Shown: one piece after another, positions 3,264 to 19,441 of the stretch | Position numbering within the stretch: position 1 is the stretch's first letter | Layout of the letters: every line of letters begins with the position of its first letter | Assembly (NCBI GenBank): GCA_029261855.1 | Contig: JAJDAN010000060.1 | Location: 1 to 64,000, forward strand | Length of the DNA stretch: 64,000 nucleotides | Source: Deltaproteobacteria bacterium | GTDB lineage: Bacteria > Myxococcota_A > UBA9160 > UBA4427 | Direction of reading: 5' to 3' | Made by a program: the position numbers and the translations under genes | The notes under the pieces: generated by a model | What the model was told of the DNA's origin: nothing | Database searches by the model: none | Seen by the model: the letters and a program-made list of their open reading frames with translations, nothing else

Positions 3264-3265
3264 CG

Positions 3266-3952: not shown

Positions 3953-5241
3953 TCGACTTCGACCGCAAGCACATCTGGCATCCCTACACGTCGATGCTCG
4001 ACCCGCTTCCGGCCTACGCGGTGGAATCGGCGTCGGGAGTTCGCATCCGTCTGACCGACGGCCGCGAGCTGGTGGACGGGATGGCGTCCTGGTGGTGCGC
4101 GATCCACGGCTACAACCACCCGGTGCTCAACGCTGCGATCCAGGACCAGCTCGGACGCATGGCCCATGTCATGTTCGGGGGGCTCACCCACGCGCCCGCG
4201 GTGGCGCTTGCCGAGCGTCTGATCGCGCTGACACCGCGAGACCTGCAGCACGTCTTCTTCAGCGACAGCGGCTCGGTGGCCGTCGAAGTCGCGATCAAGA
4301 TGGCCCTCCAGTACTGGTTTGCAGCGGGGCGCGACACCAAATCCCGACTGCTGACGATCCGCGGCGGATACCACGGTGACACCTTCGGTGCGATGGCGGT
4401 CTGCGACCCCGTCACCGGGATGCACGAGCTGTTCCGGTCGGTCCTGCCGCAGCATCTGTTCGCGCCGCGTCCGGAGAGTCGCTTCGGCGAACCGTTGTCC
4501 GGTGTCGACGCCGATGCCTTCGAATCGCTGATCCGCGCCAACCACCACGAGCTCGCCGCCGTGATCCTCGAGCCCATCGTGCAGGGCGCGGGGGGCATGT
4601 GGTTCTACTCGGCGGACTATCTCCGGCGAGTCGCGGATCTCTGCGCCGAGCTCGACGTGCTCCTCATCCTCGACGAGATCGCGACGGGCTTCGGCCGCAC
4701 CGGAAAGATGCTCGCGGGTGAGCATGCGGACGTCTCACCCGACATCTTGTGTCTCGGCAAGGCGATGACCGGCGGCACCGTCAGCCTCGCGGCCACGCTC
4801 ACGACCGCGCGTGTCGCAACGGGCATCTCGGCGGGTGGGGGTGTGCTGATGCACGGTCCCACCTTCATGGGCAATCCCCTGGCCACGGCGGTGGCGTCCG
4901 CCAGTATCGACCTCCTGCAGGCCGACGACTGGCAGGGGCGGGTGGCCGGCCTCGAGGCGCAGCTGGCGGATCAGCTACTGCCCCTGGCGGCGCATCCCGC
5001 GGTGCTCGACGTCCGGGTGCTCGGCGCCATCGGCGTCGTCCAGACCCGTCGGCCGGTCCCGGTGGCGGAACTCCAGCGCCACTTCGTGGAGCAGGGGGTC
5101 TGGATTCGTCCCTTCAACGACCTGATCTACTTGATGCCGCCCTACACGATCTCCTCAGAGGATGTGAGCCGGCTCACACGGACGATCGAGAGCGCGCTCG
5201 ATGTTCTAGAGGAGGTCCCTGTGTCGCCTGAGAACCGCTGA
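3949..5241 (+). CDS. bioA: Adenosylmethionine-8-amino-7-oxononanoate aminotransferase
   Basis: PLP-dependent class III aminotransferase that turns KAPA into 7,8-diaminopelargonate using SAM as amino donor. The 430-aa product shows the BioA-specific start HIWHPYT, then MASWWCAIHGYNHP, FFSDSGSVAVEVAIKMA, RGGYHGDTFGAM, LDEIATGFGRTG and LGKAMTGG with the PLP lysine near residue 271. The start codon GTG lies inside the bioD stop (GTGA). The order F-D-A allows sequential use of intermediates; the entry steps and bioB must be elsewhere. Confidence 0.95.
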   Translation: MIDFDRKHIWHPYTSMLDPLPAYAVESASGVRIRLTDGRELVDGMASWWCAIHGYNHPVLNAAIQDQLGRMAHVMFGGLTHAPAVALAERLIALTPRDLQHVFFSDSGSVAVEVAIKMALQYWFAAGRDTKSRLLTIRGGYHGDTFGAMAVCDPVTGMHELFRSVLPQHLFAPRPESRFGEPLSGVDADAFESLIRANHHELAAVILEPIVQGAGGMWFYSADYLRRVADLCAELDVLLILDEIATGFGRTGKMLAGEHADVSPDILCLGKAMTGGTVSLAATLTTARVATGISAGGGVLMHGPTFMGNPLATAVASASIDLLQADDWQGRVAGLEAQLADQLLPLAAHPAVLDVRVLGAIGVVQTRRPVPVAELQRHFVEQGVWIRPFNDLIYLMPPYTISSEDVSRLTRTIESALDVLEEVPVSPENR

Positions 5242-5265: not shown

Positions 5266-7176
5266 GTGCCTCCGCGGACATCCGATCCGGATGTGGCTCG
5301 ACTCCAACGAGCGGAGGGGATTCCCATCGAACGCCTGACCCGATTCCACGTTCCGAACCCGGTGCCCGCGCTTTGTCTGGTCGCGATCCTGGTGGCCGGG
5401 ATGCTGGGCTGCGCAGGCACCGCCTGGGAGAAGGCTCTCGTTACGGACACCCCCCAGTCCTATCACCAGTTCATGCGGAAGTACCCGGATTCCGACCATC
5501 TCCGGGACGCCGAGGAGCGCATCGCCTTCCACAAGGTGAAGCGCCGACCCTCTCCCCAGCGCTTCGAGTCGTTCCGGCAGACCTATCCGGACAGCCGTCT
5601 CATCGCCGAACTACGACCGCTGGTGGAGTCGCAGTTCTTCGACGCGGCTCGCGCCGCCGGCACTGCCGCGGCCTACCGGTCCTTTGCCGCCGAATTTCCG
5701 AACGGGCCGTTCGCCGAGCGCGCCCTGGGCAACGCTGTATACGTGGACGCCGACGGCTTCGCCGGGCAGGCGGATGCGCTGCGGGGTTTCGCCGCCTCGC
5801 ATCCGGCGAGCGACTTCGCGGCGGAGGCCAAGCGGTCGGTCGCTGCACTCGACACGCGCGTCGGCACCCATTTCAATCGGGTCGGGCTCGTCGTGGAGAT
5901 CGCACCCGCGACCCCCGAAGCGAAGCGCCTCATGAAGGAGTTCACGGAGCGGGCGATGGACATCTACGACGACTCGGGCGTCGAGCTCGTGGCCATTCCG
6001 GAAATCGCACCGCCGGGCGCGCCTTCCGTGAGGCTCCACATCAAGCACGGAGAGGCCACCGAGAAGGCGAACATCAGCTCGGGTGACATCAGCAAGGCCG
6101 GGGCCGTGGCACACACGGTGGTCAGCCTGCGCCGGACGCCCGAAGGTCCCCCCATCTTCGAACGCTCCTTCGAGATGCGATTTGCGTCTCGCGAGCGCAT
6201 CGCGAACGCCTCGATGCTATTCGCGTCCCGCGAGGCGAAGCTCTACTGGGATCAGTTCTTCGTGCCCGTCGCGTCGTGGCAGTCGTCCGCGGCGGTTCGA
6301 CCGGCGTTCGACCTGAAGAAGAAGGTCACGGCAGTGGACGCGGTACTCGGTCGTGCCGTGGTGCTCTTCTCGGACGGTGACTTCCAGCTGATGGGGCTTG
6401 CCGATCCCGAGAAGCCGGTCGTTCTGGCACGCTACGACCGCGACTCGAAGCTCGAGCACTTCGACGGCGTGAAGATCGTCGGCGACAAGGTCATCCTTTT
6501 CGGTCAGGACGGCCTCGAAATCGTCGGGTTCTCGGCCCAGGGGCCCAAGGCCGTGGCGAAGCATGGCCGTGGGGAAGTGGGCTCGGTCGCGGCCCTGGTT
6601 CCCGCCAAGGAGGGGCTGCTGCTCGCCAGCAGCAAGGGCCTGCTGCTCACCGAAGCGGACGGCACCAATCCCGAGCGCGTCATGCGTCGCATCGTTCGCG
6701 GGATCGACTCGCTCGGCGAGACTCTCGTCTTCACCGATGGGGAATCGATCTTCGTCTCGACTCTGGCGATGCTGCGGCAGAACCGGGTCGTCGCGCAGCT
6801 ACGCCTGGGGCGAGAGTTCAAGCCCGAGCGCGTGCGCGTCGTCGAGCGGAGCGCAGTGGTGATGGGTCATGGCGGCGTCGTCGTGATCGATCTCCAGACT
6901 CCGGCCAAGCCGCGCGTCGTCTCGAAGCTGGCTCGCCAGAAGTCCGGGCAGGTGGACGATGCCGTGCGCATCGGGAAGCAGGTCTTCCTGCTGGGCGCAC
7001 GCGGCGTACAGCTGCTCGACGCCAAGGCGACGCGGATCGTCGAGGTGGTCGACGTGGTGGCCCGCGAACGCGCAGCCCGGATCGGGCGACACCTCGTGGT
7101 GGTCGGCGACCAGCAGCTGCAGGTCGTCGATGCGCTGCCGTTCGACCCGACGGCGTCGCGCCCGGCGTCGCGCTAG
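5266..7176 (+). CDS. Lipoprotein with TPR-like N-terminus and propeller-like C-terminus
   Basis: A 636-residue protein that I cannot assign to a named family. A hydrophobic segment (residues ~33-48) ends in the lipobox GMLGC with Cys49; the long leader before it suggests a start later than the GTG at 5266. Residues ~55-190 contain repeated YPDS/FPNGPFAE-type motifs typical of TPR or Sel1-like envelope proteins. Residues ~330-625 hold repeated strands of the type VVLFSDGDFQLMGLADPEKP and VVVIDLQTPAKPRVVS, resembling LVIVD-type beta-propeller repeats. It starts 24 bases after bioA but has no obvious role in biotin metabolism. Likely an envelope scaffold protein (inference). Confidence 0.6.
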   Translation: MPPRTSDPDVARLQRAEGIPIERLTRFHVPNPVPALCLVAILVAGMLGCAGTAWEKALVTDTPQSYHQFMRKYPDSDHLRDAEERIAFHKVKRRPSPQRFESFRQTYPDSRLIAELRPLVESQFFDAARAAGTAAAYRSFAAEFPNGPFAERALGNAVYVDADGFAGQADALRGFAASHPASDFAAEAKRSVAALDTRVGTHFNRVGLVVEIAPATPEAKRLMKEFTERAMDIYDDSGVELVAIPEIAPPGAPSVRLHIKHGEATEKANISSGDISKAGAVAHTVVSLRRTPEGPPIFERSFEMRFASRERIANASMLFASREAKLYWDQFFVPVASWQSSAAVRPAFDLKKKVTAVDAVLGRAVVLFSDGDFQLMGLADPEKPVVLARYDRDSKLEHFDGVKIVGDKVILFGQDGLEIVGFSAQGPKAVAKHGRGEVGSVAALVPAKEGLLLASSKGLLLTEADGTNPERVMRRIVRGIDSLGETLVFTDGESIFVSTLAMLRQNRVVAQLRLGREFKPERVRVVERSAVVMGHGGVVVIDLQTPAKPRVVSKLARQKSGQVDDAVRIGKQVFLLGARGVQLLDAKATRIVEVVDVVARERAARIGRHLVVVGDQQLQVVDALPFDPTASRPASR

Positions 7177-7299: not shown

Positions 7300-8250
7300 A
7301 TGGCAATCAGTACGGACCGCCTCATGAGGCGTCTGATCCTGGGGTCCACCGCGGCGCTGCCGCGTGGCCTGCGTGTCGCCGCTCGCTATCGCTGGCTGTT
7401 GTCGCTGCAGCTCGCGCAAGCCAGGCGGTCGGACTGCGCGGTCGTGCGGCATCCGAAGACCGGCGGGACCTGGCTGCGGGTGCTGATCACGCGGCTGTAT
7501 GCGGCGAAGTACGGCCTGCCGTCCCAGCGCGTGGTTCGCACCGACGAGCTGAACAACCTCGATGGGCGGGTCCCGGTCTTTCTCTCGAGTAGCGGCTATC
7601 TCAGCTGGGAACGCGGCTGGGGCGACATCGTCGCCACCGACCCCGTGCTCCGCGAGAAGAAGCTCCTGCTGCTCGCCCGCCACCCCGGTGACATCATCGT
7701 GTCCTGGTACATCCAGTTCACCAAACGTACGAGCGCCTTCAAGCGAGAGATGATGCTCGCCGAGATGCAGGACCCGATCGACCGCGAGACCATCGACCGC
7801 TGGGACTACATCCGCCACCCGGAGATCGGTCTGCCGCACGTCATCGACTACTACAACTACTGGCACGCCAATGCCGCGCGGCTGCCCCACGCGCTGGTGG
7901 TCCGCTACGAAGATCTCCGCAGCGACACCGCCGCGCAGTGCGAGCGGATCGGTGCCTTTCTGGGGGAAGACTTCAGCCCCGCGCACATCGATGACGCCGT
8001 GGACTTCGCGTCCTTCGACAAGCTGCGCGAGAAGGAGCAGAGCGGCTACTTCGACAACCGCTCCCTCACGCTCCGAAACCCGGGGGATCCGGATACGCTC
8101 AAGGTCCGGCGCGGAAAAGTCGGCGGCTACCGCGACGATCTCGCTCCCGAGCAGGTCGCCTGGGTCGACGAGCAGATCGAGACCCGCCTGGCGAGCGCCT
8201 ATGGGTACGGCGGCGGAAGCGAGCCCGTGCGCAAGCTGGCGGCGTCTTAG
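7300..8250 (+). CDS. Sulfotransferase (PAPS-dependent), copy 1
   Basis: A 316-residue cytosolic-type sulfotransferase that probably transfers sulfate from PAPS to a carbohydrate or other acceptor. Seen: the 5'-phosphosulfate loop VRHPKTGGTWLRVL near residue 47, the 3'-phosphate motif LLLLARHPGDIIVSWY near 120, VRYEDLR near 200, and the C-terminal KVRRGKVGGY. The ATG at 7300 is preferred; a TTG five codons upstream is possible. It opens the surface-carbohydrate island and is paralogous to the protein at 12622-13473, sharing the last motif exactly. Before it lies a GGGGTCG-TCG-CGACCCC hairpin (7253-7269) of unclear role. Confidence 0.88.
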   Translation: MAISTDRLMRRLILGSTAALPRGLRVAARYRWLLSLQLAQARRSDCAVVRHPKTGGTWLRVLITRLYAAKYGLPSQRVVRTDELNNLDGRVPVFLSSSGYLSWERGWGDIVATDPVLREKKLLLLARHPGDIIVSWYIQFTKRTSAFKREMMLAEMQDPIDRETIDRWDYIRHPEIGLPHVIDYYNYWHANAARLPHALVVRYEDLRSDTAAQCERIGAFLGEDFSPAHIDDAVDFASFDKLREKEQSGYFDNRSLTLRNPGDPDTLKVRRGKVGGYRDDLAPEQVAWVDEQIETRLASAYGYGGGSEPVRKLAAS

Positions 8251-8306
8251 GGTCGACGAACGAGCGCTGGGCACGCCTGGGCACCAGGGGCGGGCACCAG
8301 GGGCGG

Positions 8307-10721
8307 CTACAGGGTGTGGTCCCGCCTCTCGGGGCAGGGCATCCCGACCAGCTCGCGGACGCGATCGGCCACGATCTCGAGATCGCTCAGCTGGCTCGCG
8401 GGGGCGGGTGCGAGCTTTCCGTCGAAGATCCGCGCCAGGCCCCGTTCCACCAGGATCTCGTGGAGCCGGCGGCTGTGTCCGCTGGTGCGGACGAAGCCGT
8501 GCGCCAGCAGCCTTGCGCAGAGCAGCTCGAGTCCGCGCTGGGGGCGCTCGAAGTTGCGTCGGTTGACGGGCCGGGCGTAGGCCCGGGCGGTGACCCGGTT
8601 CGCCAGCCAACGCTCCGCGCGCAGGGCCCAGTTCTTCAGGCCGGGAGAGCGTTCGTCGAGGGGATAGATGTAGACGGGCTTTCCCGTCGCGCAGGCTTCC
8701 GCCAGCATCGAGGCGCTCTCGCCGGTGACGACGAGCGCGTCGGCCATCGCCAGGTAGCCCATGTAGGGATTCTCGCCTCCGGAGGTGTTCGGATCCCAGC
8801 GGTGGAAGAGCGCGCATGCGTCGCCCAGGGCCTCTTCGAGCGCATCCGCCACGCGTGGGTTCGTGCGCCGGCTCGTCGTCGCGAGCACCGACCCGCCCTC
8901 GCGGACTGCCAGCTCGGCGACCTCCTCACCCATCCGCTGCGCCTGTGCCGAACGGAACTCGTGCTCCGGATCCTTGCCGCCCACCAGCAACGCGAGTCGG
9001 GGCGTGGGCGCCGCGGCGAATTCAGGCGCCCAGCGCTTGGCCGCCTGCTCGAGACGCCGCGGTGAGACGCGGGTCACCGGGGCGGCGGTCTCGATTCGGC
9101 GCGGATCCGGATACAGGCTGGCGTAGGCAGGTGCGACGGCGAGATCGAAGACGTCGTTCTCGAAGGCGCCAATGCGACCCATCTGGACGGTGCGGGTGCG
9201 ACCCTCGGACTGCTTGCGGATCCACGCTGCGATGGGTGCCGTCCGTCGCCCGGTGGCGATGACGAGGTCTGGCCACGGCGGCTGCAGGCGGCCACGACTC
9301 TGGGGAGTGAGCGTGATTGGCGAGCCGCGGGTCCAGGCATTGGGAAGCTCCTGAAGGACGCTGAACTCGAGCTCGATGTTTTCGTGCGGCCAGCCCAGCT
9401 CCTCCGCGAGGCCTTCGGACTGGGTCGTGTGTCCCGGCTTGTGATCCGCGAGCACCCAGACCCGGGGGACGAGCCCTTGGTCGGCGCCGGGGAATACGCT
9501 GCCGTGGAGGAATTCGACGCGAGAACGACCGAAGTCGATCGTGTCGGAGCCGGCCTTCTTGCGGCAGGTCGCGACTCGCCAGTGGATGCCCGGATGCGCG
9601 GCTGCCGCGGTCTCGAATAGCCACTCCAACCAGGCCGGCTGATCGATGGTGCCCTGAGGCGAGTGCAGGTAGCGCCGCCGCGGGGGGGGGTCGCAGCGCG
9701 CGAATGCGAAGACGAGCCGACGCGAGCGGGCGAACAGCCCCGCGATGACCCGCGGCAGATCCTCGGCCGGCAACTGGTCGAGCCGGACGCGACACACGAC
9801 GGCGTCGTAGCGTTCCCTTCGCGGCAACTCGGGCGTCGACTCGGCGAGGATCCCGACGCGGTCGACCTCGAGCTCGCCGAAGTTCGGGCTCGCGACGGGT
9901 AGAGGCCCTGACGTACCCGGGACCACTTCGAGCAAGCTGCGTGCACCGACCCGCTCGGCGAGATCCCGGATCTCGGCGTCCGCGAGCGACCCACCGCTGC
10001 TGTCGAGCGTACCCGGCGTCCTGCGCAACGCCGCGAAGGCTTCGCTCTCCTCGTCGTCTGCCGGTCGGTAGCCGGCCCGAGCTGCGTCGATTTCCATGCC
10101 GAACCACAGCTCGGCCTGGGAGTTCGGTTGGTAGTAGAAGCGCTCGGGGAAGGGTCGCCACGGCTGCTTGTGGATCGTGGTGTAGTGCAGGACCTTGGTG
10201 CGACCCGGCACGTGCTCTTCGTCGCGCGCGTTCCACTCGGGCGCCAGCACACCATAGGTGCCGGAGACCGCCCGCGCGGCGTTGATCAGACCGTACTTGC
10301 GACGCTTGCGGGCGCCGTCGAGGGTCCAGAAGCGTCCCATCTTCTCGCAGTCCATCAGCATGACCGACGTGTCGGTTTCGCTGATGGCGAGATACCCGTG
10401 GTCGTCCATCTCGCTGTCGAAGAGTTCGGCCGGGTCCGCCAGGTAGATCTGGTCGACGTCGTTGTAGATCGCGCGCCCGCGATAGCCCGCGAACGCCGGC
10501 ACCGCGAAGCGGTAGTTGGTGAAGCCCGTGTTCCAGAGCAGGTTCCGGAAGCCGGACAGGCTCTTCATGAGGTGGATCTCGTAGACGCGCGATGGATCGC
10601 GGACCTGCTCGACCGACCACAAGAAGACGCGTTCGGCTCGGTACTGTGACGGCTCGGTGCCGAGGAAGATGCGGACCGGTGGCTTTTCGCTCGGGGCAAA
10701 GCCCGGGCGAACGGCCAGCAC
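8307..10721 (-). CDS. Three-part fusion: glycosyltransferase, methyltransferase-like, ELM1/DUF1022
   Basis: An 804-residue protein built from three segments. Residues ~15-200 resemble a nucleotide-sugar glycosyltransferase of GT8 type: RIFLGTEPSQ, then YNDVDQIYLADP with a DxD-like metal site near residue 89. Residues ~250-400 resemble a degenerate class I methyltransferase (VGARSLLEVVPG, RYDAVVCRVRLDQLP, RLVFAFAR). Residues ~420-720 match the ELM1/DUF1022 family: VWVLADHKPGHTTQSEGLAEEL, PDLVIATGRRTAP, LLVGGKDPEH, VTGESASMLAEACATGKPVY. The GTG at 10721 has GAGG six bases upstream and removes a low-complexity leader; the frame is open to an ATG at 10904. It is divergent from the NeuB gene, inside the glycan island. 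Probably a glycan-assembly enzyme (inference). Confidence 0.78.
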   Translation of the reverse strand: MLAVRPGFAPSEKPPVRIFLGTEPSQYRAERVFLWSVEQVRDPSRVYEIHLMKSLSGFRNLLWNTGFTNYRFAVPAFAGYRGRAIYNDVDQIYLADPAELFDSEMDDHGYLAISETDTSVMLMDCEKMGRFWTLDGARKRRKYGLINAARAVSGTYGVLAPEWNARDEEHVPGRTKVLHYTTIHKQPWRPFPERFYYQPNSQAELWFGMEIDAARAGYRPADDEESEAFAALRRTPGTLDSSGGSLADAEIRDLAERVGARSLLEVVPGTSGPLPVASPNFGELEVDRVGILAESTPELPRRERYDAVVCRVRLDQLPAEDLPRVIAGLFARSRRLVFAFARCDPPPRRRYLHSPQGTIDQPAWLEWLFETAAAAHPGIHWRVATCRKKAGSDTIDFGRSRVEFLHGSVFPGADQGLVPRVWVLADHKPGHTTQSEGLAEELGWPHENIELEFSVLQELPNAWTRGSPITLTPQSRGRLQPPWPDLVIATGRRTAPIAAWIRKQSEGRTRTVQMGRIGAFENDVFDLAVAPAYASLYPDPRRIETAAPVTRVSPRRLEQAAKRWAPEFAAAPTPRLALLVGGKDPEHEFRSAQAQRMGEEVAELAVREGGSVLATTSRRTNPRVADALEEALGDACALFHRWDPNTSGGENPYMGYLAMADALVVTGESASMLAEACATGKPVYIYPLDERSPGLKNWALRAERWLANRVTARAYARPVNRRNFERPQRGLELLCARLLAHGFVRTSGHSRRLHEILVERGLARIFDGKLAPAPASQLSDLEIVADRVRELVGMPCPERRDHTL

Positions 10722-11115
10722 GAGAGCCTCGGGGATTGCGCGATGCGGGGTGTGCGCGCGACCGCTGGACACGGGTACTCCGGGTTGTCGGGTTGGCCGA
10801 CTGGCTTCGGGCTCGTGAGCCCGTGGAACGGGAGGCGCAGGATACAAGTGCCGAATGCGGCAGTCGACTGGTCGAAATCCCGAGGGGCAATCGGCCTCGA
10901 GCAAGAACCCCAGGCAACCCGCGGGGGTTCATTGACTGTCCTCAGACCCCCCGCTAATCCCTATGCCGCGACTCTCGGTAACCCAGCTGCGACAGCCTCG
11001 TACGAGCTTGCACGACCGCCTGGCGTCGCACTTCGAGACCCCGGATCCACACCAAGACCAGGCGCGAAGTGTCCCCGGACACCCCCAGGGACCTCACCGA
11101 ACCGGAGCCCAGGCC
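10722..11115. promoter_or_regulatory. Divergent intergenic region between the ELM1 fusion and the neuB-type gene
   Basis: About 390 bases without a well-supported gene, between divergent units, so it should hold promoters for both. On the plus strand TTGACT (10932-10937) and TAATCC (10955-10960) are 17 bases apart; the -35 is good and the -10 poor. Both flanking frames are open across part of this stretch, but their translations are Arg/Pro-rich and unlike the conserved domains. No terminator or repeat was seen. Confidence 0.3.
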
Positions 11116-12612
11116 ATGAAGGATCTGCTCGACGATCTCTACATCTTCGAGATGGCGAACAACCATCAGGGCAGCGTCGAGCATGGTCTCGCCATCGTCG
11201 ACGCCTGCGCGCGGATCGCGCGCACCCAGAAGGTCCGGGCGGGCGTCAAGCTGCAGTTCCGCGAGCTCGATTCCTTCATTCACACCGACTACAAGGGACG
11301 TCAGGACGTCCCGCACCTGCCGCGCTTCGAGTCGACGCGACTCGACACCGATGAGTTCCGCCAGCTGACGGACGCCATCCGTACTGCCGACATGGTCCCG
11401 ATCGCGACGCCCTTCGACGAGGCTTCGGTTGGAACGTGTCTCGATCTCGGAATTCGGGTCATCAAGGTCGCCAGCTGCTCCGCGACGGACTGGCCCCTGC
11501 TCGAGGCAATCGCCGGCGCGCGCAAGCCGGTCATCGCATCGACGGGCGGCCTGAGCATCTTCGACATCGACAACCTCGTCAGCTTCTTCCGGAAGCGGGT
11601 TCCCGAGTTCGCCCTGATGCACTGCGTCTCGCTCTACCCGACGCCGAACGAGCAGGTCGCGCTCGGCTTCCTCGAGAAGATGATCCGGCGCTACCCCTAC
11701 GTCCGCGTGGGCTATTCCGGCCACGAGGCCCCCGAGAACACCGAGGTCGCCGTGGCGGCGATCGCGAAGGGAGCCCGGCTGCTCGAGCGCCACGTCGGCG
11801 TGCCGACGGATTCGATCAAGCTGAACGCCTACTCGATGAATCCCGCAGAGGCCGATCAGTGGGTGCGGGCCGCCGAGCGTTCGCGTGCGATCTGCGGCGC
11901 AGACCAGGGCAAGCACGTCAGCCAGGAAGAGGTGGACTCGCTGCTGTCGCTGCAGCGCGGCGTGTTCGCACAGAAGCCGCTCAAGAAGGGTCAGGAGGTC
12001 ACGGCTTCGGACGTCTTCTTTGCGATGCCCTGCCAACCGGGGCAGCTCACGAGCGGCGATTTCGGGCATCTGCGGGCGTGCTACACGGCATCCAGGGACT
12101 ACAACGTCAACGAGGCAGTCTTCGAGAAGCCCACCTCGGACGAGATCAGCCAGCTGCGCGGCATCCTGCACGACGCGAAGGGCCAGATCTTCGAGGCGGG
12201 CATCGTCCTGGGCGACGACTACCAGATCGAGATCTCCCACCACTACGGTCTCGATCGCTTTCGGCAGACCGGCTGCATCCTCGTGAACCTGGTCAATCGG
12301 GAGTACGCCGAGAAGCTCCTCATCATGCTGCCGAGCCAGAGCCATCCCCATCACCATCACAAGCGGAAGGAGGAGACTTTCCGCTGCTTGTGGGGCGACG
12401 CACTCGTCGAGCTCAATGGAGAAGAGGTGAAGCTCGAGCCGGGCGATTCGCTGCTGATCCAGCGCGGTGACGTGCATGGTTTCAGCTCCGTTGGGGGTTG
12501 CATCATCCAGGAGGTCTCGACGACCCACATCGTCGGCGACTCCTATTACGACGATCCGCGCGTGCGAGAGCTCGACCCCATGCAGCGGAAGACGATCCTC
12601 GAAAGCTGGTAG
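11116..12612 (+). CDS. NeuB-type nonulosonate synthase fused to a C-terminal cupin
   Basis: A 498-residue protein. Residues ~8-270 are a NeuB/sialic-acid-synthase-type TIM barrel (FEMANNHQGS near the start, GVKLQFRELDSF, KVASCSATDWPLL, STGG, YSGHE), which would condense PEP with a hexosamine. Residues ~295-355 are a SAF/antifreeze-like domain (RGVFAQKPLKKGQEV). Residues ~405-480 are a cupin: a His-rich HPHHHHKRKEE, ELNGEEVKLEPGDSLLIQRGDVHGF. The ATG at 11116 is chosen because the barrel begins there. The next gene starts 9 bases later. With the CMP-sugar synthetase at 16055 it points to a nonulosonic or related 3-deoxy sugar; which one is not decided by the sequence. Confidence 0.88.
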   Translation: MKDLLDDLYIFEMANNHQGSVEHGLAIVDACARIARTQKVRAGVKLQFRELDSFIHTDYKGRQDVPHLPRFESTRLDTDEFRQLTDAIRTADMVPIATPFDEASVGTCLDLGIRVIKVASCSATDWPLLEAIAGARKPVIASTGGLSIFDIDNLVSFFRKRVPEFALMHCVSLYPTPNEQVALGFLEKMIRRYPYVRVGYSGHEAPENTEVAVAAIAKGARLLERHVGVPTDSIKLNAYSMNPAEADQWVRAAERSRAICGADQGKHVSQEEVDSLLSLQRGVFAQKPLKKGQEVTASDVFFAMPCQPGQLTSGDFGHLRACYTASRDYNVNEAVFEKPTSDEISQLRGILHDAKGQIFEAGIVLGDDYQIEISHHYGLDRFRQTGCILVNLVNREYAEKLLIMLPSQSHPHHHHKRKEETFRCLWGDALVELNGEEVKLEPGDSLLIQRGDVHGFSSVGGCIIQEVSTTHIVGDSYYDDPRVRELDPMQRKTILESW

Positions 12613-12621
12613 GTCCCGACC

Positions 12622-13473
12622 GTGTCGATCTCGCTGATCCCGAAGCGGGCCCGGGTCTGGGCCTCCCATCGCTATCGCGCGTGGCGTGAGTCCAATCAGG
12701 CACTCGCTTGCAACGTCATGGTGCTCTCGCGTGCCAAGAGCGGCCGCACCTGGGTGCGGGCGATGCTGTCTCGTCTCTACCAGCAGCACTATGGCCTGGA
12801 AGAGGCGCAGCTGATCGAGTTCGACAACTTCCACCGCCAGAACCGCGCCGTCCCGACGATCTACTTCACCCACGGTCACTACCTGCGGGACCGCTTCCAG
12901 GACGAGTCCTGGAGCCGTTCGTTCGGTCGTCGCAGAATCCTCTTCCTCGCCCGGAATCCATGCGACGTGGCTGTTTCCGAGTACTTCCAGTCGACTCGAC
13001 GCGCGAGCGATCACAAGGTCGCGCTACACGGGGTCGACCGGGACGCCTCGATGTTCGACTTCGTGATGAACGCTCCCGTCGGGCTGGGCTCGATCGTCGA
13101 CTACCTGAACGGCTGGGCACCGGTGATGTCCGGCAAGGACAACGCGCTGGTCGTTCGCTACGAGGACCTGCGCGCGCGGCCGGAGGAGCGCCTCTTCTCG
13201 ATCTGCCAGTTCCTCGGGGCGCCGTTCACGAAGGAAGAGATCGGCGAGGCGGTGGAATTCACGGCCTTCGAGAACCTGAAGGAACTCGAGCGGAAGAACT
13301 TCTTCAAGAACCGCCGACTCACTCCCAAGAACCTGGACGACCCCGATTCCTTCAAGGTGCGGCGGGGCAAGGTCGGCGGCTACACCGACTACTTCGACGA
13401 AGAGCAGATCGCCGCCATGGAAACGCTGGTCCGCGATCGCCTCGATCCCGTCTTCGGCTACTTCAGCTCGTGA
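12622..13473 (+). CDS. Sulfotransferase (PAPS-dependent), copy 2
   Basis: A 283-residue sulfotransferase, paralogous to the one at 7300-8250. The phosphosulfate loop is VLSRAKSGRTWVRAM near residue 33 (Lys-Ser-Gly-Arg-Thr-Trp instead of Lys-Thr-Gly-Gly-Thr-Trp). The 3'-phosphate motif is ILFLARNPCDVAVSEYF near 110, VRYEDLRARPEE lies near 175, and the shared KVRRGKVGGY near 250. GTG start 9 bases after the neuB-type gene, so probably in the same transcript. The acceptor is unknown; divergence in the variable middle suggests a different acceptor from copy 1. Confidence 0.88.
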   Translation: MSISLIPKRARVWASHRYRAWRESNQALACNVMVLSRAKSGRTWVRAMLSRLYQQHYGLEEAQLIEFDNFHRQNRAVPTIYFTHGHYLRDRFQDESWSRSFGRRRILFLARNPCDVAVSEYFQSTRRASDHKVALHGVDRDASMFDFVMNAPVGLGSIVDYLNGWAPVMSGKDNALVVRYEDLRARPEERLFSICQFLGAPFTKEEIGEAVEFTAFENLKELERKNFFKNRRLTPKNLDDPDSFKVRRGKVGGYTDYFDEEQIAAMETLVRDRLDPVFGYFSS

Positions 13474-13540
13474 GCTACATTTCGCGCGCCCCTGGTGGCG
13501 CGCGAAGCGGCGTGGCCAATAGGGGTGTGCGAGGAGCCCG

Positions 13541-14911
13541 ATGAACGCTGACGTCCTGATCATTCCCTGTGAGACGCAGGCGCGGGAGTTCGACGCGAAG
13601 CTGCTGCTGGCGGCGTTCGCCGCGGAGCGCGGCTTCTCGGTCATCGTTGGGTCGAAGAAGGAGATCAACAAGCGGATCGGTTCGCTGCCCCGCTCGATCT
13701 TCGTTTCGAAGAGCCTCACCAAGCGCAACCTGCTCAACTACGAACTGCTCGACCGCCTGGGCCACCAGGTGGTGTGCGGCGACGAAGAGGCGCTGGTCTA
13801 CGCGTCGCCGGACTCCTACCTGCACCACAAGGTGGCCGCGGCCACGCTCCGGAAGGCGAGGGCGTTGCTCGCCTGGGGACCGCAGAACGAGCAGCTGTGG
13901 CGGAATTTCTCGGCCTACGACGGTGCACCGATCCACGTCACCGGCAACGCCCGCATGGACCTGCTGCGTCCGGAGCTTCGCCCGCTGTTCGAGAGCGAGT
14001 CTCGGCGCTTGCGCGAGCGCTTCGGACCCTTCGTCCTGATCAACACCAACTTCAGTCGACTCAACCATTACTTCCCGGGGCAGAGTCGCCAGCGGCGTGC
14101 GCTGGAATCGGGGCCAGCCGGCGGTGCAGGCGACCTGGGCCGGGGGCTCGCGGCCCACAAGGCAAGGCTCTACGAGCATTTCCTCGAGATGGTCCCCGCC
14201 GTTGCGCGAGCCTGTCCGGACCATACGATCGTGGTACGACCGCATCCCTCCGAGAAGCAGGACACCTGGCGCGAGCTCACGAGCGACCTCCCCAACGTTC
14301 AGGTCATCCACGAGGGCAACGTCGTGCCCTGGCTGATCGCGTCCGAGGTCGTGATCCACAACGGCTGCCAGACTTCCGTCGAGGCGTACCTGCTCGGCGC
14401 CGCAACGATCGCCTATCAGCCGGTGACCTCCGAAGACTTCGATCTCCAGCTTCCGAACCTGCTGAGTCATCGCGCGTTCGACCTCGCGAGCCTGCGCGAC
14501 ACGCTGCGCGCGCAGCTGGACGGCACGCTTCGCAAAGACCCCAGCGAAGCGGCGAAGCAGGAAGAGCTGATCGATCAGTACGTGGCCGCGCGGTCCGGGC
14601 CCTTCGCCTGCGAGCGCATCGTCGGGGCGATCGAGGCGGTGTGTGAGGCGCCGAACCCCATCCCGCTCCGGCCCCTGCCCGAGCGCATGCTCGCCCGAAG
14701 CGTCGCGCAGGGTCGCGGGTTGCTGCAGCGTGTGGAGGCGTACTGGCCGGGTCACCACAACAACCGTGTCTTCCTGCGCCACATGTTCCCGGGCGCCAGC
14801 CTTTCCGAAGTTCGCGAGCGGATCGCGACCTACGGCGAGCTGCTGGGGCGCTTCAGCGCCGTGCAGGTCCGCGAGCGCCACACGAACGTCTTCGAAGTGG
14901 CCGCGGCCTGA
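13541..14911 (+). CDS. GT-B-like surface carbohydrate biosynthesis protein
   Basis: A 456-residue protein resembling bacterial 'surface carbohydrate biosynthesis protein' entries with a GT-B or capsule-type fold. Seen: an N-terminal Rossmann-like start (ADVLIIPCETQAREFDAKLLL), VTGNARMDLLRPE near residue 130, a nucleotide-sugar-site-like TIVVRPHPSEKQDTWRE near 230, and VVIHNGCQTSVEAYLLGAATIAY near 270, the pattern of HPSEK...N..ST.EA found in CDP-glycerol/capsule glycosyltransferases. No signal peptide. ATG start. It follows the sulfotransferase by 67 bases in the same direction. Substrate not predictable. Confidence 0.75.
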   Translation: MNADVLIIPCETQAREFDAKLLLAAFAAERGFSVIVGSKKEINKRIGSLPRSIFVSKSLTKRNLLNYELLDRLGHQVVCGDEEALVYASPDSYLHHKVAAATLRKARALLAWGPQNEQLWRNFSAYDGAPIHVTGNARMDLLRPELRPLFESESRRLRERFGPFVLINTNFSRLNHYFPGQSRQRRALESGPAGGAGDLGRGLAAHKARLYEHFLEMVPAVARACPDHTIVVRPHPSEKQDTWRELTSDLPNVQVIHEGNVVPWLIASEVVIHNGCQTSVEAYLLGAATIAYQPVTSEDFDLQLPNLLSHRAFDLASLRDTLRAQLDGTLRKDPSEAAKQEELIDQYVAARSGPFACERIVGAIEAVCEAPNPIPLRPLPERMLARSVAQGRGLLQRVEAYWPGHHNNRVFLRHMFPGASLSEVRERIATYGELLGRFSAVQVRERHTNVFEVAAA

Positions 14912-14933
14912 ACGAGAGAGGCGACTGGAGACG

Positions 14934-16052
14934 ATGACCACGGTCAAAATCGTCGGCGCGGGTTCCATCGGGAACCACCTGAGCCACGCCTGCCGCCAGC
15001 AGGGCTGGGCGGTCACCCTCTGCGATCGCGATCCCGAGGCGCTCCGTCGCACACGCGAGGACATCTACCCGCAACGCTATGGCAGCTGGGACGACGGCAT
15101 TCGCCTGGCGGATCCCGCTGCGGTGGTCGCGGACCCCTTCGACGTGGTCATCGTGGGCACGCCTCCGGACAGTCACGTACCCATCGCCCTCGCCCAGCTC
15201 GAGGCGGCGGCGCCGCGGGTGCTCTTCATCGAGAAGCCGCTGTGCCCGCCGGACCTCGACGGCTGCGAAGATCTGCAGCGCAGCGCACGCGAGAAGGGGA
15301 CCTTCGTCGGGGTCGGCTTCAACCACACCCTGACGCGCAATACGGCACTCGCAACCGACTGGCTGCGCGATCACCCCATCGGCGAAATCGTGACGCTGCG
15401 GTCCATGACGCGGGAGCACTGGGGCGGGATCTTCGGTGCGCACCCGTGGCTGGCCGGTCCCGGCGACAGCTACCTCGGTTTCACAGCGCGCGGCGGGGGC
15501 GCCATCGGTGAGCATTGTCATGCCATCAACATCTGGCAGCACTTCGCACTGTGTCTCGGGCTCGGCCGCGTTCGTGAGGTATCCGCCATGCTCGACTGGG
15601 TGGAGGAGGGCGGTGTCCGCTACGACCGCATCGCCCAGCTCTCGGTTCGGACGGAGACGGGGCTGGTGGGGACCATCGTGCAGGACGTCGTCACCGAGCC
15701 CGCTCGGAAATGGCTTCGGGTGCAGGGAAGCGACGGCTTCCTCGAGTGGGAAGTCAACGCGGACGCCGGTCACGACGCCATCCGAACGAAGGCGTCGCGC
15801 GTCGGGGACGTCGAAGAGACCCTGATCGCCAAGACCCGGCCGGACGACTTCCTCGGCGAGATCCACCACATCGGCTCCCTCCTCGAAGGCAACGCCTCGA
15901 TTCGCGGAAAGGACTCGCCGGTGTCCCTCGAGCGGGGTCTCGACACGATGCTCGTCGTCGCTGCCGCGATCCGTTCCAGCGAAGAGGGGCGAAGCGTGAC
16001 GATCGACCATGCGCGCGGCCCCAGCCTCGACGCGCTCCGTTCGGGGCTGTAG
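14934..16052 (+). CDS. Gfo/Idh/MocA family oxidoreductase
   Basis: A 372-residue NAD(P)-dependent sugar dehydrogenase. The Rossmann motif VKIVGAGSIGNHL is at the N-terminus, VVIVGTPPDSHVPIAL near residue 70, FIEKPL with the conserved EKP near 95, and GGGAIGEHCHAINIWQHF (catalytic-region His residues) near 185. The ATG at 14934, 22 bases after the previous gene, has GGAG upstream. In nonulosonate and heptose clusters such enzymes oxidise or epimerise the sugar nucleotide; the exact step here is inferred only from context. The cytidylyltransferase follows after 2 bases. Confidence 0.88.
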   Translation: MTTVKIVGAGSIGNHLSHACRQQGWAVTLCDRDPEALRRTREDIYPQRYGSWDDGIRLADPAAVVADPFDVVIVGTPPDSHVPIALAQLEAAAPRVLFIEKPLCPPDLDGCEDLQRSAREKGTFVGVGFNHTLTRNTALATDWLRDHPIGEIVTLRSMTREHWGGIFGAHPWLAGPGDSYLGFTARGGGAIGEHCHAINIWQHFALCLGLGRVREVSAMLDWVEEGGVRYDRIAQLSVRTETGLVGTIVQDVVTEPARKWLRVQGSDGFLEWEVNADAGHDAIRTKASRVGDVEETLIAKTRPDDFLGEIHHIGSLLEGNASIRGKDSPVSLERGLDTMLVVAAAIRSSEEGRSVTIDHARGPSLDALRSGL

Positions 16053-16054
16053 GG

Positions 16055-16771
16055 GTGCGCGGTGGACGCCGCGTCCTGGTGGTCGTGCCCGCCCGGGGCG
16101 GCAGCAAGGGCGTGCCCCGCAAGAACCTGCGTCCCGTTGGAGGCGTTCCGCTCGTGGCTCGGGTCGGCTCCCTGCTCGCAGAGCTGCCCTTCGTCGACCG
16201 CGCCGTCGTCTCGACCGATGACGACGAGATCGCCGCGGTCGCCGAGAAGGCCGGTCTGGCCGCGCCGTTCCGGCGCCCGGAAGCGCTGTCCGGAGACCGC
16301 ATTGGCGATCTCGAGGTGCTGACCCACGCCCTCGAGGCGAGCGAAGCAGCGGACGGGACCCAATACGACGTCGTCGTGATGCTCCAGCCGACCAGTCCCC
16401 TGCGACGGGCCGCACACGTGGAAGCTGTGGTGACGAAGCTCGTGGAAGGAAACTTCGACGCCGTCTGGACGGTGGGGATCACGGACCTCAAGTACCACCC
16501 GCGCAAGCAGCTCAGCCTGGACGCTGACCGGCTCCGCTTCTACGACGATCGTGGCGGCGAGGTCGTCGCACGCCAGCAACTCGACCCGGTCTACCACCGC
16601 AACGGCGCCGCCTACGCGATCAGTCGCAGCTGCCTGCTCGAGCAGAAGAGCATTCTTGGCAGAAATGCATCGGCAGTCGTGATCGACGAACCGATGGTCA
16701 GCATCGACACCCTCGAGGACTTCGAGCGCGTCGAGGAAGCGCTGCGCGGGCGAGACGGTGGCGCGTCGTGA
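16055..16771 (+). CDS. CMP-sugar synthetase (NeuA-type cytidylyltransferase)
   Basis: A 238-residue cytidylyltransferase of the acylneuraminate/KDO type that activates a 3-deoxy acidic sugar with CTP. Seen: VVVPARGGSKGVPRKNLRPV at the N-terminus (CTP-binding P-loop), FVDRAVVSTDDDEIA near residue 45, VMLQPTSPLR near 105 (the LQPTSPLR family motif), RNGAAYAI near 180, and IDTLEDF near 218. GTG start 2 bases after the oxidoreductase stop; its TGA overlaps the next GTG. Acts after the NeuB-type enzyme; most like the NeuA/PseF/LegF group, with the exact sugar undecided. Confidence 0.9.
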   Translation: MRGGRRVLVVVPARGGSKGVPRKNLRPVGGVPLVARVGSLLAELPFVDRAVVSTDDDEIAAVAEKAGLAAPFRRPEALSGDRIGDLEVLTHALEASEAADGTQYDVVVMLQPTSPLRRAAHVEAVVTKLVEGNFDAVWTVGITDLKYHPRKQLSLDADRLRFYDDRGGEVVARQQLDPVYHRNGAAYAISRSCLLEQKSILGRNASAVVIDEPMVSIDTLEDFERVEEALRGRDGGAS

Positions 16772-17691
16772 CGGCGAGCCGCCGCATCCACCAGCCGATC
16801 AAGGGTCGGGCGATCCGCAAGCTGCTGTGGAAGCGTCTGCATCTGCCCCGGGCTGTGGTTCATCCGCTGCTCAGCGCCGCCAAGCGGGCCGCGAACCCCG
16901 CGCAGGTCAGGCTTCGCCGCGACCTGGCGCGCGAGGCCGCGGGGAGTGGGTCGGCTCTCTCCGGGGTCCCGGAACGCGACGGCTACCGGCTGCTCGCGTC
17001 CGGCGAGGTCCCCGGTATCGACGCCGTCCTGTCGCGTTGTGCGGAGATCTACCACGGGGCGCGGCGGGACGCCGAGGACGAAGACCACCGCTTCAACCCG
17101 CGCAAGCGCTTCCTGCTCTCGTTGCTGTCGGGTCCCGAGTTCTGTGCGTATCCGGACCTGATTCGCTTCATGGTGTCGAGGCCGGTGCTCGATGTGGCAA
17201 CCGCGTACCTCGGCGCCGTGCCCGTACTCGCCGGGGCGGCGCTCTGGTGGACGCCGCCCAACGAGACCGCAGAGCGCAGCCAGCTCTTCCATCTCGATGG
17301 CGAAGACGAGCGGCAGCTCAAGCTGTTGATCAACGTCTTCGAGACCCGGCCGGAACACGGACCCTTCACGCTGATCCCCGCGGAGCACTCCGCGCCCCTG
17401 TGCAACGCCGCGGCCATGCGGCGACGAATCCCCGATGAAGAGGTCGATGCGCGCTGCGGTCTCGCGAACCGCGTGTCCTTCGAGGGCGGACCCGGGTCGG
17501 GCGGGTTCGTGGACACCTCGCGCTGTCTCCACTACGGAAGCCGCCTTACCCGACAGGACCGGCTCGTGCTGATGGTCCAGTTCCTGCGCTTCGATTGTCC
17601 TACGGAGTCGACCTTCGATTTCGCAGTTCCGCCGGACCTCCCGGGTCTCGATCCCGACCCGGTACAGAAGCTGGCGCTCGGGCTGGAGTAA
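16768..17691 (+). CDS. Phytanoyl-CoA dioxygenase-like protein
   Basis: A 307-residue protein probably with the double-stranded beta-helix fold of Fe(II)/2-oxoglutarate oxygenases. The iron ligands would be His and Asp in QLFHLDGEDERQLKLLINVF (near residue 172) and the distal His in DTSRCLHYGSRLTRQDRL (near 250), the HxD...H arrangement of PhyH-like proteins. GTG start inside the preceding stop (GTGA), so it is coupled to the CMP-sugar synthetase and may hydroxylate the glycan or its carrier. Family assignment is from motif arrangement and moderate; substrate unknown. Confidence 0.65.
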   Translation: MTASRRIHQPIKGRAIRKLLWKRLHLPRAVVHPLLSAAKRAANPAQVRLRRDLAREAAGSGSALSGVPERDGYRLLASGEVPGIDAVLSRCAEIYHGARRDAEDEDHRFNPRKRFLLSLLSGPEFCAYPDLIRFMVSRPVLDVATAYLGAVPVLAGAALWWTPPNETAERSQLFHLDGEDERQLKLLINVFETRPEHGPFTLIPAEHSAPLCNAAAMRRRIPDEEVDARCGLANRVSFEGGPGSGGFVDTSRCLHYGSRLTRQDRLVLMVQFLRFDCPTESTFDFAVPPDLPGLDPDPVQKLALGLE

Positions 17692-18767
17692 TGCGAATGG
17701 AACGCGCGCGACGCATGTGTACGCTCGGGGTTGCCCTCGTCGGCCTTCTGGCGCCGCTGTGGCTTGCCGGCGCCAGCGACGCCCAGCAGTCGGGCGCGGC
17801 CCGCCTGGGGACCGGAGACGAGTCGTCGGAATCCTGGGACCTGGTCGCGAGCTTCGTTTCCGGACACCGCCTCTTTGCTCGCTTCTCGATCAGCAACGAG
17901 GGCCCCGGTGATCGCACCGGTTATGCGCTCGGCCAGATCGTCTTTCCCGACGGAAGGGTGGCGCCGTTCCAGAACGGCCGGCTCGAAGGCGATTGGGAGC
18001 TGTCCGAAGACCGGTTGCGCATGGAGATCGGGTCCAGCGTCCTCGACCTGCACGGCCCGGCCAACCACTTCGAGGTCGACAAGAACAAGAAGGGCGTGAA
18101 GGTCTTTCTCGACTTCGAGCCGGGCACGGAAGAGCCCCGCCCCTGGTCCGCCGCACCCAAGGGATTGCACCACGACCTGCTGGTCCTGGGCGCGAAGATT
18201 CGCGGCACGATCTGGGTGCGGGACGTGATGGGCGACGCCATGCCGACCCCGGTCACGGGCCATGTGACGTTGACCCACAGCTGGATGGACCGCGGTGAGC
18301 CGGACTTCGTCCAGCGCCGGGTGGAGCCCCAGCTGCTGGCTTCGGCCGACGGAACACAGCACGCCTATCTGGCGAGCGTCGTCCCGATTCGCGGCGAGCC
18401 GAAGTCCTGGGCGGTCGTGCGCCGGGCACGGCCCGACGGAACCAGCGACTGGCTGGAGACCGACGCCGTCACCCTGACGTCCTCGGGCGAGCACGCCGCC
18501 AGCGAGAAGGGCTATCCGGTGCCGACCCGACTCGAAGTCGGAGGGGACCGCCTGCGCGGCAGCATCGCCCTCGAAAAACAGCTCGTCGAGCACGATCCCC
18601 TGGATGCGGCGCCGCGCCCGTTCCGTTGGCTGCTGTCCTTCCGGACCGCCCCGCGCCAGGTCTGGCTCGTGTCCGCCTTCGATCTGACCTTCGATGCCGA
18701 CGCGCCGCTGCAGATTCGCGGCGACGGCCTGACGTCGTTCTACTTCATCAACCCCCAGAAAGACTGA
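17691..18767 (+). CDS. Exported AttH/CrtC-like (lipocalin-like) protein
   Basis: A 358-residue protein with an N-terminal signal peptide (MRMERARRMCTLGVALVGLL..., cleavage probably after AGASDAQ). The mature part is rich in beta strands with WSAAPKGLHHDLLVLGAKIRG, VTGHVTLTHSWMDR and GYPVPTRLEVGGDRLRGS. This is the layout of AttH/carotenoid-1,2-hydratase-like double lipocalin proteins (paired Trp/His motifs), but the match is by pattern only. The ATG shares the last base of the previous stop (TAATG) and the TGA overlaps the next ATG, so it belongs to the glycan operon despite being exported. Role unknown. Confidence 0.6.
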   Translation: MRMERARRMCTLGVALVGLLAPLWLAGASDAQQSGAARLGTGDESSESWDLVASFVSGHRLFARFSISNEGPGDRTGYALGQIVFPDGRVAPFQNGRLEGDWELSEDRLRMEIGSSVLDLHGPANHFEVDKNKKGVKVFLDFEPGTEEPRPWSAAPKGLHHDLLVLGAKIRGTIWVRDVMGDAMPTPVTGHVTLTHSWMDRGEPDFVQRRVEPQLLASADGTQHAYLASVVPIRGEPKSWAVVRRARPDGTSDWLETDAVTLTSSGEHAASEKGYPVPTRLEVGGDRLRGSIALEKQLVEHDPLDAAPRPFRWLLSFRTAPRQVWLVSAFDLTFDADAPLQIRGDGLTSFYFINPQKD

Positions 18768-19441
18768 TGAACTGGAACGCGATCCGCTGCGTCGGCTTCG
18801 ACTTCGACGGCACGCTGGTCGATTCGAACGCCATCAAGCGCGACAGCTACTTCGAGGCCCTCGCCCCCGTCGCAGGCGCGCGGGAGGTCATCGAGGCGGT
18901 GCTGCGCGAACACCCGCGCGACGATCGTCACGGGACCCTCGCCCGCGTACACGCGCGCCTCTCCGTTCCCGCGCGCGGATCCGGCGAGGGGTCTCGCGAC
19001 CCACTGCCGCCCGTCGCCGATTGGGTCGACGCCTACGCGGCAGTCTGCGAGGCGCGGGTGATCGCTTGTCCGCCGATTCCCGGCGCTCTCCCGGCGTTGG
19101 ACGCGTTGGCGGGCAGCCACGCCCTGTACCTCGCGTCGGCGACGCCCGAAGACGCGCTCGTACGGGTCGTCGCCGGCCGTGGCTGGACGGACCGCTTTCG
19201 AGGCGTCTTCGGCGGACCCCGCAGCAAGGTCGAGAACCTCGTGCGCATCGCCCTCGGCGAAGGCCTCGAGCGGGAGCAGATCGTCTACGTCGGAGACGGC
19301 GCGGTCGACCGCGACGCCGCACGGGAGTTCGGCTGCCCGTTCTTCGGCTTTGGCAGCGATCCCGATGCGCTGCCCGAGGGTCCCCTGGCGCCGCTGATCT
19401 CCGAGCTGGCCGCGCGCAGCGGGCGGGTCAGCGCCGCCTGA
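18767..19441 (+). CDS. HAD-superfamily phosphatase
   Basis: A 224-residue HAD hydrolase. Motif I is VGFDFDGTLVDSN with catalytic Asp12 and Asp14, followed by a helical C1 cap; motif II is LYLASATPEDA near residue 125; motif IV is VYVGDGAVDRDAA near 178. ATG inside the upstream stop (ATGA). In sialic-acid-type pathways a HAD phosphatase removes the 9- or 8-phosphate from the newly made sugar phosphate, a plausible role here (inference). Last gene of the plus-strand island; its 3' end overlaps the convergent gene by 14 bases. Confidence 0.85.
   Translation: MNWNAIRCVGFDFDGTLVDSNAIKRDSYFEALAPVAGAREVIEAVLREHPRDDRHGTLARVHARLSVPARGSGEGSRDPLPPVADWVDAYAAVCEARVIACPPIPGALPALDALAGSHALYLASATPEDALVRVVAGRGWTDRFRGVFGGPRSKVENLVRIALGEGLEREQIVYVGDGAVDRDAAREFGCPFFGFGSDPDALPEGPLAPLISELAARSGRVSAA

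Follow-up and report, generated by a model that had tools for sequence, protein, structure and literature searches.

What does a bacterium build with a gene cluster that pairs a sialic-acid-type synthase with two sulfotransferases, and to what is the product attached? The cluster lies at positions 7300-19441 of a 64-kb stretch of contig JAJDAN010000060.1 (the window; part of our contig C60) from a Deltaproteobacteria bacterium of the Myxococcota, whose genome measures 6.96 Mb and is 98.6% complete. A sequence-only reading of the window had proposed that this island makes a cytidine monophosphate (CMP)-activated acidic sugar that is later sulfated. From comparison with related genomes we propose that the island would make, activate, transfer and sulfate a nonulosonic acid (NulO) resembling 2-keto-3-deoxynononic acid (Kdn) as the head group of an outer-membrane glycosphingolipid, a reading of the sequences that we consider evenly balanced between right and wrong.

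Sialylated and sulfated sphingolipids are usually viewed as a speciality of animals and haptophytes. If the proposal is true, bacteria reached the equivalent of ganglioside- or sulfatide-like lipids by another route, and the "sialic acid synthases" of a widespread family, with 355 relatives confirmed in one scan, carry a wrong default annotation. Furthermore, the head groups of bacterial sphingolipids and the replacement of lipopolysaccharide (LPS) in Nitrosomonas would become questions testable in named isolates. The open-licence PMC papers searched contained nothing that joins a nonulosonate, a sulfotransferase or sulfate to bacterial ceramide or its genes, and no description of the NeuB-cupin fusion discussed below. 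This agrees with the initial statement that no pathway with this exact gene set has been described.

Ceramide genes beside the module in related genomes

The protein at the centre of the island is a NeuB-type synthase fused to a cupin domain (11116-12612, + strand). The scan covered 84,980 species genomes; the 80 best of its 355 confirmed relatives were retained and are called here the 80 loci. The other window genes have homologues beside the synthase in the following numbers of loci, all of them lower bounds because the contigs are short: neuA 74, gfo 34, TIGR04396 25, HAD 17, sulfotransferase 15, PhyH 8 and ELM 7. Neighbours in low-GC loci were clustered from calls based on open reading frames (ORFs), as the gene caller fails there. 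The NeuB-cupin module is old and occurs in many phyla. Eight loci from Lachnospiraceae, Oscillospiraceae and related bacteria (L061, L069, L070, L072, L073, L074, L077 and L080) pair NeuB-cupin with a NeuA-type neighbour and have no gfo, TIGR04396 or serine palmitoyltransferase gene (spt) nearby.

Four lineages, namely Wenzhouxiangella-type Gammaproteobacteria, Nitrosomonas, Nitrospirota and Panacagrimonas, carry the module beside a ceramide-synthesis operon that includes spt, and several of them also have a lipid kinase, an MsbA-like ABC transporter or LptF/LptG. Neighbour clustering placed an AMP-binding enzyme, a short-chain dehydrogenase/reductase (SDR), a small protein resembling acyl carrier protein (ACP) and an aminotransferase next to the module in the Wenzhouxiangella-type genomes, one Nitrosomonas and Nitrospirota. 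In locus L097, model scores identify the aminotransferase as a serine palmitoyltransferase (623.3 bits; 500 required) and the AMP-binding enzyme as a fatty acyl-AMP ligase (778.7; 600 required); in this locus spt, ELM, TIGR04396, gfo, neuB-cupin and HAD run along one strand with gaps below 90 bp. These neighbours belong to the bacterial sphingolipid cluster aasR, cerR, acpR, spt and cerS. When compared with the annotated spt cluster of E. coli BL21 (yghO, ligase, SDR, ACP, spt, lptG and lptF), all five ceramide genes were matched in L034, L041, L142 and Panacagrimonas perspica (SDR in L078, the other four in L140), and four of the five in L047, L097 and L103. L041 additionally encodes a DAGK_cat protein, a fatty acid desaturase, an MsbA-like ABC transporter and two LptF/LptG proteins. 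The available passages of PMC9386255 give yghO as the N-acyltransferase of the ceramide pathway and describe aasR, acpR and spt, N. eutropha included; those passages make no mention of sialic, neuB, sulfotransferase, glycosyl or LptF.

The spt gene lies inside the locus in 11 of the 80. When 56 whole genomes (49 of the 80 loci plus 7 genomes from the window's phylum) were searched with the spt model, 15 had a match above the cut-off. Among the 49, spt was found for 14 of 18 loci with TIGR04396 versus 1 of 31 without it (Fisher p 6e-8, a value that is uncorrected for shared descent and overstates the case, since many of the loci are close relatives). Nitrospirota, Panacagrimonas and the clade that unites the window with Wenzhouxiangella and Nitrosomonas form separate branches of the NeuB-cupin tree, and their gene orders differ. 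Because the carriers sit on separate branches, we conclude that the association of module and ceramide genes arose or was kept more than once. From this linkage we infer attachment of the sugar to ceramide.

Within the window's own phylum, L026/L119 combine the module with an SPT-like gene, a lipid kinase, an ABC transporter and a PhyH homologue, the last directly after the SPT-like gene in L119. A distance of about 10 kb or less separates NeuB-cupin from the kinase, ABC transporter and a nucleotidyltransferase in L028 and L026/L119. The window genome encodes an SPT-like protein on contig C79 (564.7 bits to the SerpalmtaseCFB model, next best model 450.1). Its contig C11 holds a paralogue of the island's ELM protein (48%; L134, 5479-7833), a fused LptF/LptG, two nucleotidyltransferases, a CDP-alcohol transferase, a lipid kinase and a protein common to the Wenzhouxiangella cluster.

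The NeuB-cupin synthase and its sugar

Membership of the synthase in the NeuB family is clear (PF03102, 140.4 bits, cut-off 22.1). The same protein scores above cut-off for Cupin_2 (42.5 bits) and for the D-lyxose isomerase domain Lyx_isomer (PF07385, 36.7 against 20.8), with the H-x-H, E and H ligands present, a domain that the sequence-only reading had overlooked. The cupin matches D-lyxose isomerase 2y0o at 1.9e-11, and two aligned stretches with 2y0o and 7nzo span most of it. It falls well below the D-lyxose isomerase equivalog NF051472 (18.4 of 350 bits). The nearest solved structure to the NeuB part is PDB 3g8r (1.6e-87), an SpsE-like protein presumably from Chromobacterium violaceum, whose function is to our knowledge unpublished; the solved chain, 350 residues long, lacks a cupin domain.

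Conservation was measured over 81 sequences, the window's and those of the 80 loci. The phosphoenolpyruvate (PEP) and metal residues K45, T98, K117, S120, S142, Y174, S201, H203 and H226 are each invariant or missing once, and the cupin metal ligands are nearly as constant: H413 in 73 of 81 (Q in 7), and H415, E420 and H454 each in 80. The sugar-binding side differs from this pattern. At the positions facing meningococcal N184, D247 and R314, which we take to be the residues that contact N-acetylmannosamine (ManNAc), the family has S/G/A (39/31/11), N (81) and M/F (77/4), respectively, so that the signature of ManNAc-using NeuB proteins is absent from all 81. Similarly, 3g8r lacks Arg and Asp opposite R314 and D247. 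Since the contact positions are replaced throughout the family, the substrate would lack an N-acetyl group, and the sugar is probably not N-acetylated but Kdn-like. The window protein also stays below the equivalogs for N-acetylneuraminate synthase (TIGR03569, NeuB_NnaB; 144.8 of 399.65 bits) and pseudaminate synthase (TIGR03586, PseI; 118.8 of 340.25), and no gene for making an amino sugar was recognised in the island.

The partner enzymes fit a known logic. The Kdn 9-phosphate pathway of Bacteroides and haptophytes uses a synthase, a HAD phosphatase and a CMP-synthetase, and the island shares these three while adding the cupin fusion, a Gfo protein, TIGR04396 and sulfotransferases. Its NeuA/PseF-like CMP-sugar synthetase (16079-16771, +; PF02348, 67.9 bits, above cut-off) is closest to PseF (TIGR03584, 131.4 bits, under the 205.7 cut-off), with KdsB lower at 61.4. 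Its phosphatase is of the HAD-IA type (18767-19441, +; PF00702, 45.1 bits). Across the family a phosphatase appears in two forms, stand-alone in the 17 loci with HAD and as a HAD-like tail fused to NeuA in others (21.0 and 18.9 bits to HAD_PNKP in the two proteins scanned, below the 27.6 cut-off); this recurrence supports a 9-phosphate route. The clusters for sialic, legionaminic and pseudaminic acids likewise combine a NeuB-type synthase, a CMP-synthetase and a transferase. The island differs from them in the fused cupin, the altered sugar contacts, the HAD phosphatase and scores below the cut-offs of the NulO equivalogs matched.

TRANSFERASES and sulfation

Two island genes are candidates for glycosyl transfer. 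The product of 8307-10721 (- strand; PF06258, 225.9 bits, cut-off 27) is predicted to join a GT8-like N-terminal domain, an unassigned middle and a C-terminal GT-B domain of the ELM1 (mitochondrial fission ELM1) family. Its AlphaFold2 (AF2) model (pLDDT 73.1) matches GT8-type proteins (GlyE, 3tzt and UGGT) as well as GT-B proteins (UDP-GlcNAc 2-epimerase and MurG); only the domain folds were used, because the pTM is 0.49. The protein at 13541-14911 (+), described from sequence alone as GT-B-like, is a member of the surface carbohydrate biosynthesis family TIGR04396 (337.7 bits, cut-off 125). It matched the BFO_1060 glycosyltransferase domain model more weakly (63.7 of 200), and sequence search returned no convincing solved relative. 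We infer from its gene neighbourhood that this is the CMP-nonulosonate transferase.

Both sulfotransferases belong to the family dependent on 3'-phosphoadenosine 5'-phosphosulfate (PAPS), with PAPS-binding motifs seen by eye. Sulfotransferase A (7300-8250, +; ATG at 7300 read from the sequence) reaches 64.5 bits to PF00685 (cut-off 22) and has an orthologue with 74% identity in a same-genus genome. Sulfotransferase 2 (12622-13473, +) reaches 103.8 bits, and its nearest solved structure is SULT2B1 (3.3e-16). As this nearest relative is cytosolic, sequence similarity suggests that sulfation may take place on the inner side of the membrane, ahead of export.

The best match in the 15 sulfotransferase loci was sulfotransferase 2 in 14 and sulfotransferase A in 2, one locus having both; the gene in L036 was missed by ORF clustering and recovered by BLAST on stop-to-stop ORFs. 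In a FastTree phylogeny of NeuB-cupin, rooted at the midpoint and displayed without branch support, the window groups with Myxococcota, Nitrosomonas, Wenzhouxiangella-type Gammaproteobacteria and a small number of further metagenome-assembled genomes. All 15 loci fall in this clade, which comprises 21 loci in addition to the window; of the six that lack the gene, three are from Nitrosomonas and three are truncated contigs. The sequence-only reading had named homologous clusters lacking sulfotransferases as grounds for abandoning its proposal. The linkage holds for 15 loci of one clade and fails for the other 65 within the locus DNA examined. Because of those 65 loci, we conclude that sulfation is a clade-specific addition outside the core. 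The families found do bear out a pathway to a CMP-activated acidic (3-deoxy-2-ulosonic) sugar with PAPS sulfotransferases in one neighbourhood, and this central claim of CMP-nonulosonate synthesis with sulfation is likely to be correct.

The oxygenase gene (16768-17691, +) has no family match and no convincing solved relative in a sequence profile search of the PDB. Its earlier designation as PhyH-like gains support from the AF2 model (pLDDT 63), whose predicted fold is that of 2-oxoglutarate/Fe(II) oxygenases among the matches listed, and from the HxD motif, distal His and Arg (H175, D177, H255 and R265), which are invariant in five relatives. The exported protein (17715-18767, +), called lipocalin-like in the sequence-only reading and with a hydrophobic N-terminus judged by eye, had no Pfam, NCBIfam or PDB match. 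A homologue in genome G075 (L138, 8357-9400; 37% identity, E 4e-62) adjoins a DAGK-type lipid kinase, and an SPT-like gene of that genome adjoins another kinase of the same type.

Proposed pathway and alternative explanations

In the pathway that we propose from residue conservation and family membership, the cupin domain would supply an aldose phosphate, for instance by converting fructose 6-phosphate to mannose 6-phosphate, and NeuB would condense it with PEP. The HAD enzyme would strip the phosphate, the Gfo protein would modify the sugar in some way, and NeuA would form the CMP-NulO. The TIGR04396 protein would then pass the NulO to a saccharide acceptor that the two-domain transferase would have assembled, the cytosolic sulfotransferases would add sulfate, and the PhyH-type oxygenase may hydroxylate the sugar or the lipid. 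For relatives, the phosphosphingolipid cluster CC_1168-CC_1152 of Caulobacter crescentus offers an analogy, under which delivery to the outer membrane would fall to an MsbA-like ABC transporter and LptF/LptG. As described in the accessible parts of PMC11324152, that cluster comprises aasR, cerR, acpR, spt and cerS, a ceramide kinase, second LptF/LptG copies (within LptC2/F2/G2) and a candidate flippase; the kinase is characterised in the corresponding parts of PMC10331486. The window's relatives carry a similar set of ceramide, lipid-kinase and LptF/LptG genes beside the NulO module. The head groups described in those parts of the two papers differ in being phosphoglycerates, no neuB, neuA, TIGR04396 or sulfotransferase is named there, and the window, unlike Caulobacter, has no ceramide genes near its island.

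A sphingolipid is the most likely carrier, with about equal chances either way for the window's organism and better ones for Wenzhouxiangella, Nitrospirota and Panacagrimonas. Several findings weigh against it. None of aasR, cerR, acpR, spt or cerS lies beside the island in the window, where the nearby BioF is genuine; the Myxococcota SPT-like proteins score below the curated cut-off of 640; and 69 of the 80 loci have no spt in the locus DNA examined. The scheme gives no reason for a Gfo step, and gfo occurs in fewer than half of the loci. Furthermore, the window genome has LpxC (41243-42058, inside the window 22 kb downstream of the island), LpxB, WaaA and LptD, so ordinary LPS is an available acceptor. 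Finally, in the Nitrosomonadaceae, the family of genome G378, LpxC was found in 0 of 61 genomes and NeuB-cupin in 2 of 61, which makes the sugar optional even in bacteria whose LPS may have given way to a sphingolipid. The module as a general LPS replacement in this family was rejected on the same counts.

The LPS genes of the window genome, together with GT4/GT2 glycosyltransferases and epimerases, of the sort usual in polysaccharide loci, at many NeuB-cupin loci, agree with a sugar, sulfated or not, that belongs to the LPS core, O-antigen or a capsule, the sphingolipid genes being mere neighbours in a region of envelope genes. We consider this somewhat unlikely, as the module adjoins ceramide genes in four lineages with different gene orders and family scans recognised no Wzx/Wzy or capsule export gene in the window's island. 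The Nitrosomonas carriers also argue against it. In the three searched, LptD is strong and no LpxB exceeds the cut-off (one partial match of 21.5 bits), and neither LpxC nor WaaA was found in the two tested. Since these three enzymes were not found, lipid A is unlikely to carry the sugar there; the available text of PMC3087551 had already reported Nitrosomonas europaea as lacking most lipid A genes. Perhaps Nitrosomonas kept the Lpt exporter, without lipid A, for sphingolipids. That the sugar decorates flagellin, an S-layer or another O-glycosylated protein is very unlikely. In its favour, flagellins commonly carry nonulosonates, according to paper abstracts, and the TIGR04396 protein weakly resembles the BFO_1060 family, which we take to be tied to Tannerella protein O-glycans. 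Against it, the families detected around the module included none recognised as a flagellar, S-layer or oligosaccharyltransferase gene.

A separate doubt concerns the sugar itself. D-lyxose isomerases act on pentoses among others, and the cupin is closest to these enzymes. The synthase could then use a shorter aldose phosphate and yield a C8 acid resembling 3-deoxy-D-manno-octulosonic acid (Kdo) or a C7 acid, or the cupin could be only a binding domain. The sugar-contact positions unlike those of the ManNAc enzyme and the scores far below NeuB_NnaB and PseI are compatible with such a product, but the PEP and metal residues are intact and the partner synthetase is closer to PseF than to KdsB. 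We judge this alternative to be unlikely. If the Kdn-type glycosphingolipid reading is extended to its full breadth, several phyla would make ganglioside- or sulfatide-like lipids with a Kdn-type nonulosonate on ceramide, sulfated in Myxococcota and Wenzhouxiangella-type Gammaproteobacteria, exported by Lpt/MsbA-type machinery and made by a NeuB-isomerase fusion whose starting material is a common hexose phosphate instead of an amino sugar. In the Nitrosomonas carriers without lipid A, the lipid may take over some functions of LPS, the nonulosonate standing where Kdo would be. We offer this wider picture as a tentative possibility.

Island layout and neighbouring genes

All genes named in the sequence-only reading are present, and NeuB, both Sulfotransfer_1 proteins, CTP_transf_3, GFO_IDH_MocA and HAD score above curated cut-offs. 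The Gfo/Idh/MocA oxidoreductase (14934-16052, +; PF01408, 46.1 bits) has generic Gfo/Idh proteins as its nearest solved relatives. Eight + strand genes follow in series from 11116 to 19441. Most had been said to overlap at start and stop, which is too strong: two of the seven junctions overlap (16768/16771 and 18767) and the other five have gaps of 9-67 bp, counted from start codons backed by relatives. Upstream lie the large - strand gene at 8307-10721 and the sulfotransferase A gene, which the former separates from the remaining island genes, a point that the earlier description lacks. With these corrections, the gene set is real. Beyond what chance would give, its gene content and order reappear within the genus and, in part, across phyla, and the order from bioA to a ribosomal-L24-like gene past the island is retained in the same-genus relative G181. 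ARAGORN detected no tRNA in the window.

The island is preceded by biotin genes (2085-5241) and a family-less gene (5266-7176). The biotin genes were considered as hidden sphingolipid genes and rejected, since the first is a true BioF (465.7 bits, cut-off 426.45); the genes after it encode BioD- and BioA-type domains. The gene at 5266-7176 encodes a 636-residue protein with a lipoprotein-like start by eye and lies beside the island in the same genus too (73% identity). Elsewhere in the window, a - strand gene at 42479-50416 encodes a 2646-residue protein with many TPR repeats, and another at 28405-30339 (-) fuses a redoxin domain to multihaem cytochrome c554/c7-type domains.

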